In this document: positions 15,270 to 51,781 of the stretch, in pieces
How the letters are laid out: every line of letters begins with the position of its first letter
Numbering within the stretch: position 1 is the stretch's first letter
Assembly: GCA_944325215.1 (NCBI GenBank)
Contig: CALUZC010000008.1
Span: 1 to 64,000, forward strand
Direction of reading: 5' to 3'
Length of the DNA: 64,000 nt
DNA from: an uncultured Mucispirillum sp.
Lineage (GTDB): Bacteria; Chrysiogenota; Deferribacteres; Deferribacterales; Mucispirillaceae
Position numbers and translations under genes: made by a program
The notes under the pieces: generated by a model
Database searches by the model: none
The model's input: the letters and a program-made list of their open reading frames with translations, nothing else
Told to the model about the DNA's origin: nothing

Positions 15270-17168
15270 TTACTTTTCTTTACTCTTAAGAAATTCTTCC
15301 TGATATTTTTCTGTAATTTCAATAGATACATTAAATTCAACCATTAAAACTTTCAGTAAGCCAATCATAACAGAAAAAAGTTCCCTGTGTTTTAAAAAGA
15401 GCATTGTATCTCTTTCCACACCATCATCTCTGCTAAATTTTATGTAATTAATATCTTGGATTATCTTAATATAAATTGATTGAACATAGTGCATTACAAT
15501 ATAATAAAAATCTTTTCCTACAAATTTTAATGGTATTTTTACTATATCATCAAGATTTTTTTTGTAAATATCTACATCTTCCCCTTGTGGCTCGCAGTCT
15601 GTTCGTCTTAGTATTTCTTCAATAATTGCACATTTATGTAATCCGTCTTGACATATTTCAATGATTTCATTACAGAATTTATTGGCATGATGGAGTTTTT
15701 TTAATGTTTCTTTTATATTTTTTTCTTTGTCTTTTTGTTTAGGATATTTTAATGCTCTTTTGATAGTATTAGTTGTATCAATATTTGTTGTGATATATTT
15801 ATCTATTGCTTCTTGGAAAGTCATTAATTGAGTTCCATGAATTTTTGCTCCACCTTCTGTAGCATTAATTACAGTGCCTTTAAATGTGGCAATATCTCTT
15901 TCATAGTGAAGTAAAAACTGCTTATAAACTGGTTTTGATTTTACTTTTTCCTGATAGTTGCCTTCTATTTCTATAAAACTACCAAGCAAACTTTTTTCCT
16001 GAGTTCCATAATGGAAACCTTTTGCGTGGGTTTGTAAATCATCAGTAATAGATAAATCCTGCCCGATAAGTATAATTGGATCGCACCCTAAAAATTCTAA
16101 TATTTTAAATGCCATATTACCTGCAGATGGTCCAATATCTAATATCCCACGTTTAATATTAAGCCAGTCAAATGTAGCAAAATTACGGTAAACTATAATT
16201 TTATCCCCTGGAAAGTTTGCATATGTTTCAGGGACCACAACAGGGCATGCTGCTAAATATGAATCTTTAACATCTTCTGGTGTAAGCCCTTCAAATAAGT
16301 ATGATGTTTGAATAACACGTTCTAAACTTGTAACCATATGAGCTGGTGGCAGGTTATTATTCTTTAAAATTTTCACACTACCATCTGCTGCACATATTAC
16401 AGCTTTCTCTCTAATATCCTTTAGTAAATGTATATTTTTATTTAATGACGGACCTGATGATACAACTATACCAGGTTTTCCTTTAAAAATGTTTTCAAGT
16501 TCCAATATACCTGGGTTATCAATAATTGTAGGAATATTTCTTAATGTATATTTTATACCTAAAAGGCTGTCATGAGGGTCATTTCCATATAAAAGTAAAA
16601 CCTGATGTATACCCTCTTTTAATAACTGCAATGCAGCTGAATAATATTCTCTATTTCCAAAATAGCATATTGGCTGTTCTAATATGTTTATTGATTTTAG
16701 GTAATGGATATTTACACTCATATTTAAAAAATTAAAAACATAGGGATAAGATAATCGTATATTTGGACCACCAACAAAATGAATATTAGGGCTGCTTAAT
16801 AAATCTGTATATTTTACTGCACTAAAAGCTGTTTTTAAAAGTTCCACATCACTTTCTATGATTAATACTCTTGCATGTGGGTATTTATTAATATATTCAT
16901 ATACTTCATAACCAAGCCCAAAACCTAGAAATACAGCAACATCTGCAAGCCTGATTTTTCTATTTTTGATATCTAATTCTGCTACTCTATATGGGTCAAT
17001 ATTATTATAAAAATTTTTATTAAACTTAATATCCACCATTGAAGGAAGTTTATCTTTTCTTTGAGATGGTGCAACAACATATCTTCCTGTTAACCTTGCA
17101 TTATTTACAAGTTCTGCAAGCTGGGGGTTTCTTTTAGCAAGCATCTCAATATTATTTTTATAAGGCAT
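15270..17168 (-). CDS. Motility-associated factor (Maf) glycosyltransferase, DUF115/MptE-like
   Basis: Maf proteins transfer nonulosonic acids such as pseudaminic acid onto flagellin. This 632-residue protein has the central DUF115 (6-hydroxymethylpterin pyrophosphokinase-like) domain, with GIVVSSGPSLNKN near residue 234, CAADGSVKIL near residue 259, and GPSAGNMAFKILEFLGCDP near residues 346-364. A long variable N-terminal domain and a helical C-terminal region flank it. It is last in a minus-strand cluster and starts three bases after pseI, which supplies the donor sugar precursor. That context strongly supports flagellin glycosylation over pterin metabolism. Flagellin itself is not in this window. 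Confidence 0.88.
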   Translation of the reverse strand: MPYKNNIEMLAKRNPQLAELVNNARLTGRYVVAPSQRKDKLPSMVDIKFNKNFYNNIDPYRVAELDIKNRKIRLADVAVFLGFGLGYEVYEYINKYPHARVLIIESDVELLKTAFSAVKYTDLLSSPNIHFVGGPNIRLSYPYVFNFLNMSVNIHYLKSINILEQPICYFGNREYYSAALQLLKEGIHQVLLLYGNDPHDSLLGIKYTLRNIPTIIDNPGILELENIFKGKPGIVVSSGPSLNKNIHLLKDIREKAVICAADGSVKILKNNNLPPAHMVTSLERVIQTSYLFEGLTPEDVKDSYLAACPVVVPETYANFPGDKIIVYRNFATFDWLNIKRGILDIGPSAGNMAFKILEFLGCDPIILIGQDLSITDDLQTHAKGFHYGTQEKSLLGSFIEIEGNYQEKVKSKPVYKQFLLHYERDIATFKGTVINATEGGAKIHGTQLMTFQEAIDKYITTNIDTTNTIKRALKYPKQKDKEKNIKETLKKLHHANKFCNEIIEICQDGLHKCAIIEEILRRTDCEPQGEDVDIYKKNLDDIVKIPLKFVGKDFYYIVMHYVQSIYIKIIQDINYIKFSRDDGVERDTMLFLKHRELFSVMIGLLKVLMVEFNVSIEITEKYQEEFLKSKEK

Positions 17169-17170
17169 TT

Positions 17171-18217
17171 TTATTCTCCACTTTCTATTATATTATCACT
17201 TATTGGTGTATATTTTTGTATATTAGTCTTTGCTTTTTTGCCAACAATATTTTTTAAATATTTAGGGCTTATTCCAAGATTTGGTCTATATGAGCCTACA
17301 TTACTATAAGAAAAAAATTCATCTTTTTCAATATCTTTTATGGCATATAAACTTCGCATAAAACTTCTTCCCTTTAATGAAGCTTCGCTTACTTCATAAT
17401 CTGCCTTACCTATGGCACTTTCTGCTGCTCTAATATCATCTACAAATTTTTTAAACTGATTTTCATCTAAAGAAAATGCATTGTCTGGTGAATTTATTGA
17501 TTTATCTAAAATAAAATGCTTTTCCACCATACAGGCTCCTAATACAACAGATGTTATTGCAACAGCATTATTTAACGTATGGTCTGAAAGCCCTGTTAAG
17601 CAGTTAAAATCTTTAGCCATAACCTGTATCATTTTTAAATTTGCTTCATTAATAGGTGCTGGATAACTTGAAGTACATTTAAGTAATATAATATCATTAT
17701 TTCCAACATTTCTGCATGCTGCAACTGCATCTTCAATTTCCTGCTTGTATGCAACACCTGTAGATAATATCATAGGTTTTCCCTTTGATGCTGCATATTC
17801 AATTAAAGGTATATCATTAATTTCAAAAGATGCAATTTTATAGGCAGGCATATTTAATTCTTCTAAAAAATCAACAGCTGTCTTATCAAAAGGGGAAGAA
17901 AAACAGATAATACCATTATCATATGCAACCTGCTGCAATTTTTCATGCCACTGCCATGGAGTGTGGGCTTTATTATATAAATCATAGTAGGATATATTAT
18001 CCCAAAGTGTGCCACCTTTTATTTTAAAATCATCACTATCACAATTTAATGTTATAGTATCTGCTCTATATGTTTGTAGTTTAATGGCATCTGCCCCAGC
18101 TTTAGCTGCTGAAGCTATGGTTTTACAGGCCAAATCTAAATCACCATTATGGTTAGCTGAAAGCTCTGCCACTATAAAAGTTTTGCCACTACCAAGTTCA
18201 AAGTCTGCTATTTTCAT
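17171..18217 (-). CDS. pseI: Pseudaminic acid synthase PseI
   Basis: PseI condenses 2,4-diacetamido-2,4,6-trideoxy-L-altrose with phosphoenolpyruvate to give pseudaminic acid. This 348-residue protein has the NeuB-type TIM barrel, seen in AELSANHNGDL near residue 18, IKLQTYRADT near residue 45, CTSSYPAP near residue 181 and GLSDHTL near residue 210. A C-terminal SAF antifreeze-like domain (residues about 285-345) begins at GRSFMRSLYA. Choice of Pse over sialic or legionaminic acid rests on the neighbouring pseB, pseC, pseF and pseH. It overlaps pseH by 4 bp (ATGA). Confidence 0.92.
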   Translation of the reverse strand: MKIADFELGSGKTFIVAELSANHNGDLDLACKTIASAAKAGADAIKLQTYRADTITLNCDSDDFKIKGGTLWDNISYYDLYNKAHTPWQWHEKLQQVAYDNGIICFSSPFDKTAVDFLEELNMPAYKIASFEINDIPLIEYAASKGKPMILSTGVAYKQEIEDAVAACRNVGNNDIILLKCTSSYPAPINEANLKMIQVMAKDFNCLTGLSDHTLNNAVAITSVVLGACMVEKHFILDKSINSPDNAFSLDENQFKKFVDDIRAAESAIGKADYEVSEASLKGRSFMRSLYAIKDIEKDEFFSYSNVGSYRPNLGISPKYLKNIVGKKAKTNIQKYTPISDNIIESGE

Positions 18218-18690
18218 GTTAACCTTAATCTGTATTTTATAATGTTATTATTAATATTAATCATTTCAAATCCTTGTTTTGTAATACAATGTTGTGAAAT
18301 TATATTATCTACATACGATACCATAAATAGTTCCTTTAAAACTAGGCATTCTTTTGCATATTTTTTAGCAGTATTTATTAATATTTGTCCAATACCATTT
18401 ATATTTAAAAATGGATTTTTATAGTAACCAATATATGCACTTTCTTTATTTATATTAGTAAAACTAATAACACCTATATTGACATTATTATTTTCCACAA
18501 CAAAATATAATCTTGATTTATCATGTTCCAAAGACGCTATAAATTCTCTATGTTCTTCTATCGTAATAATATTTCTATTCAGTGAATTCAATCTAATATT
18601 ATTGTGATTACGCCAACATATAATCTCATATACTAATTTATCATCGCACTCTATAAAATTTTTTAATATTATACTCATACATTTATCCAA
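18214..18690 (-). CDS. pseH: GNAT acetyltransferase, likely PseH
   Basis: This 158-residue GNAT-fold protein probably acetylates the 4-amino group of the PseC product using acetyl-CoA. The acetyl-CoA region is recognisable as IGYYKNPFLNINGIGQILI near residues 87-105, although the usual Gly-rich loop is degenerate, as in known PseH proteins. The IICWRNHNNIRLNS start resembles the substrate-binding start of the PseH/RimJ group. It is coupled to pseI by an ATGA overlap. The assignment depends partly on context. Confidence 0.75.
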   Translation of the reverse strand: MDKCMSIILKNFIECDDKLVYEIICWRNHNNIRLNSLNRNIITIEEHREFIASLEHDKSRLYFVVENNNVNIGVISFTNINKESAYIGYYKNPFLNINGIGQILINTAKKYAKECLVLKELFMVSYVDNIISQHCITKQGFEMININNNIIKYRLRLT

Positions 18691-18832
18691 ATAAATATTA
18701 TTTAGAAAAATGTATCTAAATAATATTTATTTTTCTTTAATTGCCTTACATGTCAATTGCTTAACTGGTGTATCCCAGCTTTGTTCTCTTAATAATTCCA
18801 TATATTTTTCTTTATCCTTTAAGTAATGAACA

Positions 18833-19321
18833 TTAATTCCCCCCCCCAACAGCATAATTAGACTGAGGGATTGATTGAACATTACCTTTTAAAATATCTT
18901 CTATATTATCATTAAAAAGTGTAATTATTTCATTAATCAGCCTGTCATAACTTGTTTTTAATGTATCAGTTTCTATATTATCTTGTACTTCTTTTTGTAC
19001 AATTATATCACCAGTATCAAGTCCTTCATCTATATAGTGAATTGTTACACCTTTTGGAGTTTGTTCTATATAGCTCCAAAAGTTTGGGTCTGCCCCTCTG
19101 TTATATGGCAGCAGTGAAATATGAAGATTGATAATTCTATTTATAAATTTATCAATAATATCTTTTTTAATAATATGGCGGTAGCCAAAGCTTATTAAAA
19201 AATCATAATTTTGCACCATATCAAGTGATATTTTATCACAAGTTATTTGAATATTATGACCTATATTAATTAATTTATCAGCAAGTAAATTACTTTTTTC
19301 TCCCAGCAGCAATATATTCAT
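18833..19321 (-). CDS. Sugar N-formyltransferase, truncated by a G9 phase-variable tract (OFF state)
   Basis: This product (162 residues as sequenced) has a formyltransferase fold. The catalytic Asn-x-His is NLH at residues 65-67, followed by SLLPYNRGADPN, and the catalytic Asp lies in DEGLDTGD near residue 102. The last coding bases are a run of nine G (minus strand), and the frame then stops at once. With 8 or 11 G the frame would continue 36 codons to a stop at 18727-18729 and give 197 residues; with 10 G it stops after six codons. The sequenced allele is thus C-terminally truncated. Known relatives formylate amino sugars with N10-formyl-tetrahydrofolate. It overlaps pseF by 4 bp and lies where pseG or another pse gene might be expected. 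Its substrate could be the PseC amino sugar (inference). Confidence 0.8.
   Translation of the reverse strand: MNILLLGEKSNLLADKLINIGHNIQITCDKISLDMVQNYDFLISFGYRHIIKKDIIDKFINRIINLHISLLPYNRGADPNFWSYIEQTPKGVTIHYIDEGLDTGDIIVQKEVQDNIETDTLKTSYDRLINEIITLFNDNIEDILKGNVQSIPQSNYAVGGGN
18839..18847. repeat. Homopolymeric tract, nine C (G9 on the coding strand)
   Basis: A run of nine identical G/C bases is rare in DNA this A+T-rich. It lies at the 3' end of the formyltransferase frame, where a -1 or +2 change restores 36 further codons. This is the classic layout of a slipped-strand phase-variation tract. Confidence 0.85.
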
Positions 19322-20133
19322 TTTGCTCTCTCTAATATTCTATATGCATTACTCATTCCATTAAGTTTTAAAAGTTTTAAAGCTTCTTGTAGTTCTTCTT
19401 TTTCATTTTTAAATACATATTTTTGATATACACTTTTATTTAACTCTTTTAACCAGCTATTATTATTAAATAATTGAATTATATCTTTATATGTAAAATC
19501 ATCACCCAGCATAAAATATACAAGGTTTATTAATGCATAATCTTCATTAGTATCAACTGTTATTCTAATATCTGAATAGTTATTGCCACCATCTTCTACT
19601 ACATTTATTTTAGAAAAATTATCACTTTTTCTTACATGCCATGTAACATGCTCTCTAACTCTTATATCTTTTTCTTCCCTGTCTGTTTTTTTAAGTGCAT
19701 CAAGTGTTACAACTTCTGTATCAAGCCCGTGAGGAAATGTGCGTTTTTCCACATTTGATACGTAATCAGCCTTTGAATTTATATGTTCATCTATACATTT
19801 TTTTATAATATTATAATCAATACATGGGCAGTCTGCTGTAATTCTAACAATTCGTTCCACATTATATTTTTCTGCTGCACCAATATATCTTAAAAGCACA
19901 TCATCAAGGCTGCCCCTGTAAACTTTTGCTCCATACTTTAAAGCTTCTTCAGCAGTTAAATCATCTTCAGATAATTCACTTGTTGCCAGTATTACATTAT
20001 CGCACGCTTTTTTTGAACGCATAATAACTCGTCCAAGCATGGATATATTACTGTCTGCAGGAATTGGCATAACCACCTTATCTTTTAATCTGGTAGAAGA
20101 ACATCTTGCCTGAATAATTATACCAGTATTCAT
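19318..20133 (-). CDS. pseF: Pseudaminic acid cytidylyltransferase PseF (SpsF-like)
   Basis: This enzyme activates pseudaminic acid with CTP to give CMP-Pse, the donor for Maf. The 271-residue protein has the nucleotidyltransferase start IIQARCSSTRLKDKV near residue 5, the VRITADCPCIDYNII motif near residue 96, and DIRITVDTNEDY near residue 186. Its length and motifs fit the SpsF-type cytidylyltransferase group, whose C-terminal extension is longer than in Campylobacter PseF. It lies directly after pseC (2-base gap) and overlaps the formyltransferase by 4 bp. Nucleotide and sugar specificity is inferred from the operon. Confidence 0.85.
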   Translation of the reverse strand: MNTGIIIQARCSSTRLKDKVVMPIPADSNISMLGRVIMRSKKACDNVILATSELSEDDLTAEEALKYGAKVYRGSLDDVLLRYIGAAEKYNVERIVRITADCPCIDYNIIKKCIDEHINSKADYVSNVEKRTFPHGLDTEVVTLDALKKTDREEKDIRVREHVTWHVRKSDNFSKINVVEDGGNNYSDIRITVDTNEDYALINLVYFMLGDDFTYKDIIQLFNNNSWLKELNKSVYQKYVFKNEKEELQEALKLLKLNGMSNAYRILERAK

Positions 20134-20135
20134 AA

Positions 20136-21269
20136 CTAACTCGCCAATGCTTTTTTTATATTATCTATTACAAATTCTAACTGACTGTCAGTTAAAGATG
20201 GATATATAGGTAGAGATAATTCCCTTTCATAAAATTCATAAGCTTTCGGAGTATCTTTATAACTATAACCTAACTGCTCATAATATGGGTGGCATGTAAC
20301 TGGTATATAATGAACTTGGGTAAAAATATTATTTTCTTTTAAATAATAATATACTTTATCCCTTATAGTTTTACTTTCAAAAAGGACAGGAAATAAATGT
20401 TGAGAATTTATTCTATCATCATATATTTTCTGCGTTTTTATATTCATATCTTTAAAAGCACTATTATAAACTTCTACAATTTCATGCCTTCTTTTAATAA
20501 AACCATCTAATTTTTTTAGCTGAGAAATACCTAAAGCAGCCTGCAAATCTGTCATTCTATAATTATACCCTAATATTTGCATTTCATGATATGTTGGGCT
20601 TGTTGGTGTTTTCTGAAAATTTTCACGAACAATACCGTGGCTTCTTAAAGCAATGCATTTTTTATAAAGTGATTCATCCTGCAGTAATATTGCTCCACCT
20701 TCTGCTGTTGTAATATGTTTAACTGGGTGAAAACTAAAAACAGCAGCATTAGAATATTTTAAGCTTCCTGTCCTACTGCCTTTATAAAAACTTCCTATAC
20801 TGTGGCAGGCATCTTCTACCACATATAAATTATATTTATCTGCTATATTTTTTATTTCTTCCATATTACAAGTAAGCCCTGCATAGTGGACAGGAACAAT
20901 AATCTTCGTATTTTTATTAATTAATTTTTCAATATAATTTAAATCTATTAAAAAATCATCTAAACTAATATCTGCAAATTTTGGTTTTCCACCAAGATAT
21001 AAGCAGGCATTACTTGTAGCTGCAAATGTATTTGGAGTTGTAATAAGTTCATCTTCTTTTCCAAGACCTAAAGCATGGTATATAATATGAAGTGCTGCAG
21101 TGCCAGATGATACACAAACTGCATATCTTGCACCAGTATATTCTGATAATAATTTTTCAAATAAAGGAACATACTCCCCTTGAGTAATACTATCTGATTT
21201 TAAAGCTTCAATAACCAGTTTTATATCTTCATCGTCTATAAACTGCCTGCCATATGATATTTTATCCAT
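20136..21269 (-). CDS. pseC: UDP-4-amino-4,6-dideoxy-N-acetyl-beta-L-altrosamine transaminase PseC
   Basis: PseC transfers an amino group from glutamate to C4 of the PseB product using PLP. The 377-residue DegT/DnrJ-family protein has CVSSGTAALH near residue 52, VEDACHSIG near residue 151, and the PLP-lysine motif SFHPVKHITTAEGG near residue 178. The Lys in VKH is the Schiff-base residue. The gene starts one base after pseB ends. Length is standard. Pairing with an inverting PseB supports the Pse route over legionaminic acid. Confidence 0.93.
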   Translation of the reverse strand: MDKISYGRQFIDDEDIKLVIEALKSDSITQGEYVPLFEKLLSEYTGARYAVCVSSGTAALHIIYHALGLGKEDELITTPNTFAATSNACLYLGGKPKFADISLDDFLIDLNYIEKLINKNTKIIVPVHYAGLTCNMEEIKNIADKYNLYVVEDACHSIGSFYKGSRTGSLKYSNAAVFSFHPVKHITTAEGGAILLQDESLYKKCIALRSHGIVRENFQKTPTSPTYHEMQILGYNYRMTDLQAALGISQLKKLDGFIKRRHEIVEVYNSAFKDMNIKTQKIYDDRINSQHLFPVLFESKTIRDKVYYYLKENNIFTQVHYIPVTCHPYYEQLGYSYKDTPKAYEFYERELSLPIYPSLTDSQLEFVIDNIKKALAS

Positions 21270-21270
21270 A

Positions 21271-22272
21271 TTATTTAGCCATTTCTTTTAATTTTTTTTC
21301 TACTTCTACTGCGATTTTTCTTAAAAATTCAGCATCCATTATTTCAGGATTATTATCACTAGAATAACAAAAACCTTCAGGAAGTTTTTTTCCATTTACA
21401 ACCTTACTATTTCGCTGCCAGTTAACAAACTCTGGCATAATTCTGTAATGGTCATCAAACTCTAATGTATGGCGTGCATCATCTGTTGGTATCATAATCT
21501 CGTGCATTTTCTCACCCGGTCTAATACCAATATCTTCTATTTGGCAGTCTGGAGCAATAATTTTAGCAAAATCCTCCATAGAAATAGATGGTATTTTTGG
21601 AACAAATATCTCACCGCCTTCCATCTCTTCAAATGCTTTTATAACAAGCTCTATTGCTTTTTCAATAGTTATCCAAAACCTTGTCATCTGTCTGTTTGTA
21701 ATAGTAATTTTACCTGTTGCTTTCTGCTCTATAAATAAAGGAAGCACAGAACCACGGCTTCCTAAAACATTACCATAACGAACAACACTAAACCTTGTAA
21801 TTCTGCCACCTGCATATGAATTACCTGCTACAAAAAGCTTATCACTGGCAAGTTTTGTAGCTCCATATAAATTTATAGGGTTTGCAGCCTTATCTGTTGA
21901 TAATGCCACCACTTTTTTAACACCTGCATCTATTGCTGCTTCAATAACGTTTTCAGCACCTAAAATATTTGTTTTAATAGCTTCAAAAGGGTTATACTCT
22001 GCTGCCACCACTTGTTTTGAGGCTGCTGCATGCACTATATAATCAACTCCGTAAAAAGCTCTGTTTAAACGTTCTCTATCCCTAACATCACCTATAAAAA
22101 ACCTTAAATTTGGAATATCTTTAAAAGCACGAGCCATCTCATACTGCTTAAATTCATCTCTGGAAAAAATAATAATCTTATTAGCTTTATAATTTGTAGC
22201 TACATATTTTACAAACTGTTTTCCAAAAGTTCCAGTTCCGCCTGTAATTAAAACATTTTTTCCATTAAACAT
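21271..22272 (-). CDS. pseB: UDP-N-acetylglucosamine 4,6-dehydratase (inverting) PseB
   Basis: PseB carries out the first step of pseudaminic acid synthesis, with 4,6-dehydration and C5 inversion of UDP-GlcNAc. The 333-residue short-chain dehydrogenase-type protein has the NADP motif GGTGTFGKQF near residue 11, the catalytic LSTDKAANP near residue 124, and YGATKL near residue 136. The insert ITNRQMTRFWITIEKA near residue 196 is typical of this family. It is 14 bases downstream of a relA/spoT homologue on the same strand, so the pse genes may read through from it. Confidence 0.94.
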   Translation of the reverse strand: MFNGKNVLITGGTGTFGKQFVKYVATNYKANKIIIFSRDEFKQYEMARAFKDIPNLRFFIGDVRDRERLNRAFYGVDYIVHAAASKQVVAAEYNPFEAIKTNILGAENVIEAAIDAGVKKVVALSTDKAANPINLYGATKLASDKLFVAGNSYAGGRITRFSVVRYGNVLGSRGSVLPLFIEQKATGKITITNRQMTRFWITIEKAIELVIKAFEEMEGGEIFVPKIPSISMEDFAKIIAPDCQIEDIGIRPGEKMHEIMIPTDDARHTLEFDDHYRIMPEFVNWQRNSKVVNGKKLPEGFCYSSDNNPEIMDAEFLRKIAVEVEKKLKEMAK

Positions 22273-43552: not shown

Positions 43553-44688
43553 AAAATCACCTCATCTAAATCATACACCGTGTTTATTTTTCCAGATAAT
43601 ACACTAATAAATTTAGGTTTTTCTGAAAATACTTTAATAATTGTTGGTCTTGAATCATCTATTTCTGATGCCTGTAATATTGGCTTCATAGAAAACAAAC
43701 TGCTGCTGTATGTGAAATTAGAATATTTCTCATTTAAATATTTTTTTGCAAGACGGGACATATATGGATATGCTGTTTGTGGCTTAAAATCACATTCATT
43801 ACAGTTACCCAAAAATTCACTGGAGCAATAGTCACTATTACATAATTGCTGGCATTTAAAAGTTGGCAGATAATCATAACTTGTAATATGTGGTGTAAAA
43901 GTAACAGAAGTAAGAGAATGCAGTCCTGTTTTACCAAAAGGCATAATAGAGAAAAATGGACCGTCCATAACAGTTATCCCCACATCTTTTAATGCACCAT
44001 TAGTATTGCAAAGTATTATTTCGCATAGTTCATACTTTATTTTTAAGGGCTGAAAATCAAGCTTATTTATAATTTGGTTTACTGAAGCATATGTAGTATT
44101 TAATATAAACTCTGTTTCAAATTTACTTCCATCTTTTAATGATATAATATATTTATCATTTTCTTGGATAATAGTATCAATATACGCATTGTATTTAATT
44201 TCCACATTTTTATATGTACGTATTTTATTATATAGATATTCTAATAGTAGTTTTGCATCATAAGTATATTCTTGTGTTTCAAATACACCATCACACATAC
44301 CAGCATTAAAGTATTCATATGGATTAACTTCTGAACACATAACATTTGTATCCATGCAAAATTTTCTAAACTCTTTAGCATTGGTCCATGAAAAATTTGT
44401 ACTTGTTGCATATATTTTTTTAAAGTTTTTTTCTATACAAAACCCATAATCTTCAACAAACCTTTCAAAATAATTTCTTGATTTAATAGCTGTAGAGTAT
44501 GAGCGTGGATAATGGTAGCCCATATGAACACGAGCCTGGTTTATATATGTAGCACGCATAAAAGGGGCAGCATCTCTTTCAAGCACTAATATGCGCTTGC
44601 CAAATTCCCCCCCCCTAATTCTTCCAATTAGTTCGGCAGAATATAAGCCGTATAATCCTGCACCTATTATTATTACATCGTAATTTAT
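43549..44688 (-). CDS. FAD-dependent oxidoreductase with internal G9 tract, start codon uncertain
   Basis: The frame runs from 44697 to 43549 without a stop. It starts with the FAD-binding Rossmann motif DVIIIGAGLYGLYSAE, whose first Asp is codon 4 if ATA at 44688 is taken as start. No ATG, GTG or TTG lies between that motif and the preceding gene's stop at 44701; the first usual start is GTG at 44586, which would cut off the Rossmann motif. A G9 tract lies at 44607-44615 and is in frame in this sequence. An 8 or 10 base tract would stop the frame within about 12 codons. The middle contains Cys-rich CNSDYCSSEFLGNC near residue 280. Function in glycan synthesis is inferred from context. Confidence 0.72.
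   Translation of the reverse strand: MNYDVIIIGAGLYGLYSAELIGRIRGGEFGKRILVLERDAAPFMRATYINQARVHMGYHYPRSYSTAIKSRNYFERFVEDYGFCIEKNFKKIYATSTNFSWTNAKEFRKFCMDTNVMCSEVNPYEYFNAGMCDGVFETQEYTYDAKLLLEYLYNKIRTYKNVEIKYNAYIDTIIQENDKYIISLKDGSKFETEFILNTTYASVNQIINKLDFQPLKIKYELCEIILCNTNGALKDVGITVMDGPFFSIMPFGKTGLHSLTSVTFTPHITSYDYLPTFKCQQLCNSDYCSSEFLGNCNECDFKPQTAYPYMSRLAKKYLNEKYSNFTYSSSLFSMKPILQASEIDDSRPTIIKVFSEKPKFISVLSGKINTVYDLDEVIL
44607..44615. repeat. Homopolymeric tract, nine C (G9 on the coding strand)
   Basis: The run lies near residues 25-28 of the FAD oxidoreductase, just after its Rossmann motif. Nine G keeps the frame open. One base more or less leads to a stop within about 12 codons, giving a null OFF state. 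Confidence 0.85.
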
Positions 44689-50497: not shown

Positions 50498-51763
50498 TTA
50501 CATATATTTTTTACAATTATCGCCTATATAAAATATTTTGTTGCTATTATTTCTTAATACTAAAGTAGAAAATGTATCATATTTATTTATGCAAGCTATT
50601 CTTATATATATTTTACTTTCTGTATGAGGAATATCCACCCATAATACTCCCGATTTATTAATAGAGTATTTTTTTTGATTTACTATTGCATCATCTGTAA
50701 CTACTTCCACCATAAACTCTGTTTTATATGGCACTATCATAAAAAGTGCGATACTGCTATTCTCACCTTTATTATCTATAAACCATTCACTATATGGACT
50801 ACCCATTGCATTATCTTGTAATACTAAATTTTTTATTATTTTCTTATCATTATTTAATAAGATATCATCAAGATACTCTTCATCAATCATCTTAATTATC
50901 TCTAGGATATTATATTTTTTATTATTTTTAATATATTGATCTATGCTCAGCTTTATTTTATGTGCCTCAAACAACTCATCATATTCTTCGATTACTTTGT
51001 TGTATTTTTTTTCTACTTCATCTATTTTATTTAACAAATATTTAATGATATTATTTCTATCATATTTAACTGTCTGCCATGATTGTTTTAATATTTGATA
51101 CTGTGATATTTCTTTCATTAATTTATCAGCTTGTTTTTTGCTGGTATTCAACTCTTCATCATTCACTTCACTTTTACACACTAGTAAGCTATATTGTATC
51201 ATACTGCATATATTCCTAAAATTTTGCAATAGCATCATTTTAACTTCATCATCAAAATCATTATATTCTGGATAAAATATCAACTCTTGATTTAAAACCC
51301 TAAAATCCATTATCTGAGAACTATAATCTGATTCTGATAAGCCCCATAAATTCCCTAAACTTGGTATCTCATAATAGATTTTCATTTTATCAAATGGGGG
51401 GGGGATTATTTTATCTTTAGTAAAAAATCTAAAGGTATGCTCATTAAATGGTATCTTATGGTATAAATTTGCAATATTACTACTTTGATTTTCATATGGA
51501 GCTATTATATTAACTATAGCTTTATGCTTACATATTCTGTATATCTCACTCATTATATGATGAAGATCTTCCAAATGCTCTAAACTATGAATTGCTAAAA
51601 TAACATCAACACTATTATCATCAAAAGGTAATCTTTTATTCATATCCGTTACAATATCAACACCAGGCAAATCATCCCTATCCACACCTATGTATCCATT
51701 GTGTTTGTTTGGACCACAACCTAACTCAACTTTAACCAATTGTTTCATATCATCTTTATACAT
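50498..51763 (-). CDS. SAM-dependent methyltransferase with C9 phase-variable tract (ON state)
   Basis: The ATG at 51763, eight bases after GAGGG, gives 421 residues. The N-terminal class I methyltransferase domain has motif I VELGCGPNKHNGYIGVDRDD near residues 11-30 and the post-motif HSLEHLED near residue 63. A run of nine C on the coding strand encodes Pro121-Pro123. The frame is open as sequenced. With 8 or 10 C it stops within about five codons, cutting off the rest of the enzyme. The C-terminal 200 residues are helical, then beta-rich, without known motifs. A glycan O-methyltransferase is likely from context. Confidence 0.8.
   Translation of the reverse strand: MYKDDMKQLVKVELGCGPNKHNGYIGVDRDDLPGVDIVTDMNKRLPFDDNSVDVILAIHSLEHLEDLHHIMSEIYRICKHKAIVNIIAPYENQSSNIANLYHKIPFNEHTFRFFTKDKIIPPPFDKMKIYYEIPSLGNLWGLSESDYSSQIMDFRVLNQELIFYPEYNDFDDEVKMMLLQNFRNICSMIQYSLLVCKSEVNDEELNTSKKQADKLMKEISQYQILKQSWQTVKYDRNNIIKYLLNKIDEVEKKYNKVIEEYDELFEAHKIKLSIDQYIKNNKKYNILEIIKMIDEEYLDDILLNNDKKIIKNLVLQDNAMGSPYSEWFIDNKGENSSIALFMIVPYKTEFMVEVVTDDAIVNQKKYSINKSGVLWVDIPHTESKIYIRIACINKYDTFSTLVLRNNSNKIFYIGDNCKKYM
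51396..51404. repeat. Homopolymeric tract, nine G (C9 on the coding strand)
   Basis: The run lies in the methyltransferase gene and encodes three prolines. One base of slippage in either direction places a stop within about five codons. Confidence 0.85.
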
Positions 51764-51781
51764 AAAATTATCCCTCATGAT

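Follow-up and report, generated by a model that had tools for sequence, protein, structure and literature searches.

Phase variation of flagellin glycosylation through poly-G tracts has been described in Campylobacter jejuni, in which maf1, maf7 and Cj1295 are switched in this way (PMC6321876). These switches likewise concern flagellin glycans, some of which are pseudaminic acid; however, as described, none of them decides which of two N-acyltransferases acts at a given step of biosynthesis (PMC6321876). Poly-G formyltransferase genes also belong to the core phasomes of two other Campylobacter species, namely the lgrA group of Campylobacter coli (G8-10) and CFT03427_1556 of Campylobacter fetus (G9-10) (PMC6321876, Table 1). 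They likewise carry variable poly-G in species rich in such genes, but in another phylum, and the lgrA label suggests a likeness to the LgrA formyl domain, which is the next nearest structure to PseJ.

In Helicobacter canadensis, C-terminal poly-G phase variation was reported for genes that include the formyltransferase HCAN_0643, with G8-14 observed in reads (PMC2823697). As in the pseJ gene described below, a poly-G tract near the 3′ end alters the C-terminus, and one case, in which two neighbouring genes are fused, recalls the PseJ-PseH fusions found in relatives (PMC2823697). For HCAN_0643, however, the tail that changes was considered to be largely unstructured (PMC2823697), whereas the corresponding tail of the present PseJ is conserved and structured. 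Phase variation is not mentioned in the genome paper of Mucispirillum schaedleri (PMC5285517).

The locus analysed here lies in a stretch of 64,000 nucleotides (the window) from an uncultured Mucispirillum sp. (contig CALUZC010000008.1), the host genome being a single draft of 2.55 Mb in 67 contigs. The named loci related to it come from Mucispirillum MAGs, and a search of the phylum likewise gave genomes of this genus as the nearest. It comprises a pseudaminic acid cluster in which the formyltransferase gene pseJ carries a tract of nine G (Table 1). The kind of switch is already known; what is new is the acyl-choice switch proposed here and its repeated origin.

Table 1. Features of the pseudaminic acid cluster in the window, with the evidence for each.
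Feature	Position	Strand	Evidence
pseJ (N-formyltransferase), 162 aa, assembled in OFF form	18833..19321	-	ORF; PF00551 E 8.8e-21; PseJ 6ci2/6ci4 E 1.7e-73; fold 6ci4 TM 0.90-0.93
G9 tract, proposed switch; ON = 8 or 11 G	18839..18847	-	sequence, frames, enrichment over shuffles
C-terminal tail, 8/11 G frame only; HYLKDKEKYMELLREQSWDTPVKQLTCKAIKEK; stop 18729-18727; invariant H165	18727..18838	-	translation, alignment, pN/pS
pseH, likely ATG at 18678, intact	18214..18690	-	TIGR03585 102.1 bits, cut-off 93.1
pseI, pseudaminic acid synthase	17171..18217	-	TIGR03586 478.7 bits, cut-off 340.25
Maf/PseD-type flagellin glycosyltransferase, MptE-like domain	15270..17168	-	PF01973 E 4e-38; NF050051 183 bits, below cut-off
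cytidylyltransferase in pseF position	19318..20133	-	PF02348 E 1.4e-23; no PseF equivalog match
pseC aminotransferase	20136..21269	-	TIGR03588 460.5 bits, cut-off 423.5
pseB 4,6-dehydratase	21271..22272	-	TIGR03589 500.7 bits, cut-off 407.75
A+T-rich RNA hairpin (18 bp) separating ON stop codon from pseH	18689..18732	-	-16.7 kcal/mol, z -6.4; inverted repeat

Identity of the formyltransferase and its gene neighbourhood

Besides the PF00551 match of the 162-aa ORF, a profile built from the 197-aa reading and its relatives matched the solved PseJ end to end, and the next-best structures in the same search were the LgrA formyl domain (2.9e-52) and then other sugar formyltransferases (4.6e-21). 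For the 197-aa form, the structure prediction (pLDDT 94.4) matched the folds of 6ci4, 6ci2 and 6edk with TM 0.90-0.94, and the three highest ranks of the fold search were all PseJ. The catalytic Asn-His-Asp residues (N65, H67, D102) were invariant in 45 sequences. By sequence and fold, the window enzyme is PseJ, and its neighbour is PseH.

PseJ (N-formyl) and PseH (acetyl) act on one UDP-amino-sugar. The PDB title of 6ci4 gives a ligand name beginning UDP-4-amino-4,6-dideoxy-L-A..., which fits the amine acetylated by PseH; the PDB records, taken with what is generally known about the pathway, provide this link. By analogy, UDP-4-amino-4,6-dideoxy-beta-L-AltNAc is expected to be the substrate formylated by the window PseJ. 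The solved enzyme, from Anoxybacillus kamchatkensis (6ci2, 6ci4, 6ci5, 6edk), belongs to the same family end to end as the ON form, shares its fold and is expected to use the same substrate; phase variation has not been described for it, as far as checked. The window pseJ differs from it in the G9 tract, in a longer loop before H165 and in the presence of an intact adjoining pseH.

The PseB, PseC, PseH and PseI equivalogs of the cluster all exceeded their NCBIfam cut-offs. Profiles and fold thus support the original prediction of a sugar N-formyltransferase inside a pseudaminic acid cluster, beside a gene for a Maf-type flagellin glycosyltransferase. PseG (TIGR03590) gave no match at E 0.001 in the 10 Mucispirillum genomes, and PseB, PseC and PseI, together with PseH or PseJ, were present in all 10 despite this negative result; another hydrolase may stand in for PseG in Mucispirillum. 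As the pathway needs PseG, one of its steps lacks an assigned gene. By inspection, flgF/flgG-like flagellar ORFs were found near the window start. The hairpin ahead of pseH was considered as a terminator and was not among the terminator-like hits, and, by eye, a different inverted repeat appears to precede pseH in another Mucispirillum genome (G041).

The G tract and its reading frames

On the minus strand, the nine G occupy 18847-18839 in the sequence ...GCT GTT GGG GGG GGG AAT TAA, and the assembled allele encodes the 162-aa ORF. When the frames were computed at each tract length from 8 to 11 G, eight G opened a frame of 197 aa and eleven G opened the same frame with 198 aa, both ending at 18727, while ten G gave a product of 167 aa. 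A change in tract length therefore shifts the frame and swaps the C-terminal end of PseJ. Both earlier statements on this point, that nine G followed by a stop limit the product to 162 residues and that 8 or 11 G extend it to 18727, proved exact.

The alignment indicates which of these ends belongs to the family. All 44 aligned homologues extend at least 27 residues beyond H165, which is invariant in 45/45 sequences, lies past the tract and is missing from the nine-G form; Q153, upstream of H165, is invariant in the same alignment. The conserved PseJ tail is present in the 8/11 G frame only and absent from the nine-G product, whose short end was found in no homologue among the 45 aligned sequences. 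Since the long end is shared by all homologues, the most fitting state for nine G is OFF, as had been proposed, and the short form is not the normal end of the family.

In the predicted 197-aa structure, the tail forms strand 163-165 plus helices, and this strand is accompanied by another, 74-76, in the invariant LPxNxG loop. In the 162-aa model (pLDDT 93.5), strand 74-76 is gone and confidence is lower at that loop. The shape of the active site thus probably depends on the tail, and we infer loss of function in the 162-aa form from conservation together with the structure model. The earlier view that the catalytic residues lie upstream of the tract stands (N65, H67, D102), but its corollary, an active site untouched by switching, is not supported, since the lost tail includes H165 and strand 74-76 disappears from the short model.

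The ON form itself departs slightly from the canonical one. The loop that separates Q153 from H165 is 11 residues long, against 6 residues in 37/45 sequences, and there are changes at Gly162, Gly181 and Gly191, each of which most relatives conserve. Its activity may be reduced because of this long loop at the tract and the missing glycines. The tail frame is free of stop codons, and the tail pN/pS against six relatives, computed on 25 codons only, was 0.27-0.55, like that of pairs without a tract; against the sister species G042, pN/pS was 0.18 for the core and 0.48 for the tail. This constraint on the tail speaks against an old pseudogene.

Chance does not account for the tract. The window contained 6 G8+ matches against 0.13 expected from dinucleotide shuffles, and 0/100 shuffles reached this number. 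The host genome contains 33 G/C tracts of eight or more, and the counts by exact length, from 7 upwards, were 7 (1 tract), 8 (2), 9 (22), 10 (6) and 11 (3). The length distribution is pinned at nine, the opposite of the falling distribution given by chance, as expected for contingency loci. G9+ tracts were present in 9/9 other Mucispirillum genomes, with 2-55 G9 matches per genome when overlapping matches are counted. The pseJ tract therefore has what is looked for in a homopolymer contingency locus: a slippable length, a position in a gene and an occurrence beyond chance.

Arrangement of pseJ and pseH in relatives

In 80 homologous loci, which span many phyla, pseJ is usually flanked by pseG and pseI and so occupies the place of pseH. 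A clear PseH was found in only 4 of them, so that pseJ normally replaces PseH. The window cluster holds both. Among five clusters in which pseJ and pseH are adjacent, four carry G9 in one of the two genes, at differing places: in pseJ (the window), in pseJ (L146), in the linker of a PseJ-PseH fusion (L079) and in pseH (L086). By comparison, no tract of 9 was found in the PseJ domain among pseJ-only clusters (Fisher 3e-6, for lineages that are not fully independent). One GC-rich pseJ carries C8, and two distant clusters with pseJ and pseH apart are without a tract. The notion that every pseJ homologue has a tract was ruled out by the pseJ-only clusters, which lack them.

The tract site differs between species. 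A Nitrospiraceae MAG (L146) with the order pseG-pseJ-pseH-pseI has an in-frame G9 in pseJ at the same GGG-x-H site as the window. In the sister Mucispirillum species G042, a PseJ-PseH fusion of 365 aa has an in-frame G9 in its linker, where slippage would remove PseH and spare PseJ. Within Mucispirillum, G040 has such a fusion without a tract, G043-G046 have pseJ only, also without a tract, and the fragment G047 has a pseJ without a tract. In G039 (L086), from another genus of the family, the in-frame G9 is inside pseH. G041, another Mucispirillum, has an intact pseH beside a pseJ relic (L171 11481-12330), in which, according to DNA matches, the start of PseJ is followed by a jump to the LKTSxDRLI region; the catalytic core is deleted and the G9 is retained.

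Taken together, these arrangements tentatively suggest a value of acyl choice: in lineages that keep PseJ and PseH adjacent, one or the other of these competitors may repeatedly have come under a poly-G switch, the formyl/acetyl choice at C7 being then a selected trait that would let the flagellar glycan toggle without losing the sugar.

The proposed formyl/acetyl switch and its alternatives

The reading preferred here, with a probability of about 0.7, is that pseJ is a contingency locus in which G-tract slippage toggles the flagellin pseudaminic acid between Pse5Ac7Ac and Pse5Ac7Fo. Slipped-strand mispairing during replication would change the length of the tract, which would then vary within the population. 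With nine or ten G, the protein would end just past the tract, without the conserved tail, and PseJ would be inactive or unstable; PseH would then acetylate the 4-amino group of UDP-4-amino-4,6-dideoxy-AltNAc, leading to Pse5Ac7Ac. At a tract length of eight or eleven, complete PseJ would compete for the same amine, and some or only Pse5Ac7Fo would be made, PseH being presumed functional in both states. The Maf-type transferase would attach the sugar to flagellin, its likely target, and subpopulations would differ in the C7 acyl group. In this way, this Mucispirillum probably flips at random between two forms of a sugar that probably decorates its flagella, even if nine G may be fixed in this population. 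Counting against this reading are the departures of the ON form from the family norm, the fusion of G040 and the two distant clusters, none of which has a tract, and the lack of a PseG match. The original prediction had named a change of the glycan acyl group, which is the right kind of consequence and is plausible because PseJ and PseH share a substrate. Its mass shift of 12 Da was wrong, as the passage from acetyl to formyl removes CH2 and would set Pse5Ac7Ac and Pse5Ac7Fo 14.016 Da apart.

The same locus could be a young pseudogene, in which pseJ was locked OFF by its tract, PseH took over and the tail is decaying. Such a course would suit G041, with its core-deleted relic and G9 beside an intact pseH, as well as the conserved glycines lost and the 5-residue loop insertion gained in the window ON tail. 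However, the core is strongly constrained (pN/pS 0.18), the tail frame is stop-free with the level of constraint of relatives without a tract, and the tract length matches the maintained class of nine in the genome, which makes this course unlikely. A switch between two active forms that differ in specificity or partners seems quite improbable, given that the short end is in no homologue of the 45-sequence alignment, that H165 is invariant and that the short model lacks strand 74-76 of the LPxNxG loop; on its side are the N65/H67/D102 triad upstream of the tract, a short form that is also predicted to fold (pLDDT 93.5) and the precedent of H. canadensis, including HCAN_0643 (PMC2823697).

Two further readings concern the tract itself. 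Had the true length been 8 or 11, the gene would be intact and the OFF state would be an assembly or sequencing error; the genome is indeed a draft of 67 contigs, but 22 of its tracts measure exactly nine, and many of these sit in promoter spacers or are in frame within a gene, which speaks against systematic miscounting and leaves this a next to negligible chance. Runs of nine G can slip during transcription, and the OFF allele could in this manner yield a minor share of full-length PseJ, so that each cell would hold both forms. This ability of nine-G runs and the constraint still seen on the tail of an allele assembled as OFF would agree with RNA-level slippage, which is nevertheless highly improbable, as the genome-wide placement of tracts, promoter spacers included, fits switching at the DNA level.

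In gut bacteria, the glycans on flagellin influence motility, recognition by the immune system and the attachment of phages. If the proposed switch is true, the acetyl/formyl swap would let a mucus-dwelling commensal alter its surface while keeping a sugar that its flagellum may need. With tracts placed repeatedly in pseJ or pseH, the value of the acyl group becomes open to testing.

Poly-G tracts elsewhere in the window and the genus

Mucispirillum carries dozens of poly-G tracts, whose locations include promoter spacers, glycan genes and the gene for a DNA methyltransferase. In the glycan gene region of the window, a nine-base tract at 44607-44615 lies in a gene for an FAD-dependent oxidoreductase, whose frame is joined at nine and has no clear ATG upstream, and another at 51396-51404 lies in a methyltransferase ORF (50498-51778) that is open at nine. 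In genome G000, a G11 tract (C19:21515-21525, L065) was observed in the gene for a DNA N6/N4 methyltransferase of 627 aa; the assembled length gives OFF, lengths of 12 or 9 give ON, and the gene is a possible phasevarion. Also OFF as assembled in the same genome are a family 2 glycosyltransferase with G11 (C11:69827-69837, L061) and a sulfatase/LTA-synthase-like protein with G9 (C27:16205-16213, L070).

Intergenic C tracts of G000 lie exactly between TTGACA-like and TATAAT boxes (C2:51679-51705, C2:78377-78405, C3:3172-3198 and C12:1103-1129; L183, L189, L194 and L197, respectively), with spacers of 15-17 nt and upstream of lipoprotein or secreted-protein genes, and similar promoter-spacer tracts were observed at L025, L027, L066, L067, L069 and L071. 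From their position, these are probable phase-variable promoters. Exact matches to the promoter-tract arrangement were found in 7/10 Mucispirillum genomes, against none for the reversed control, and in one orthologous promoter the tract length was 9 in G042 and 10 in G000 and G044.
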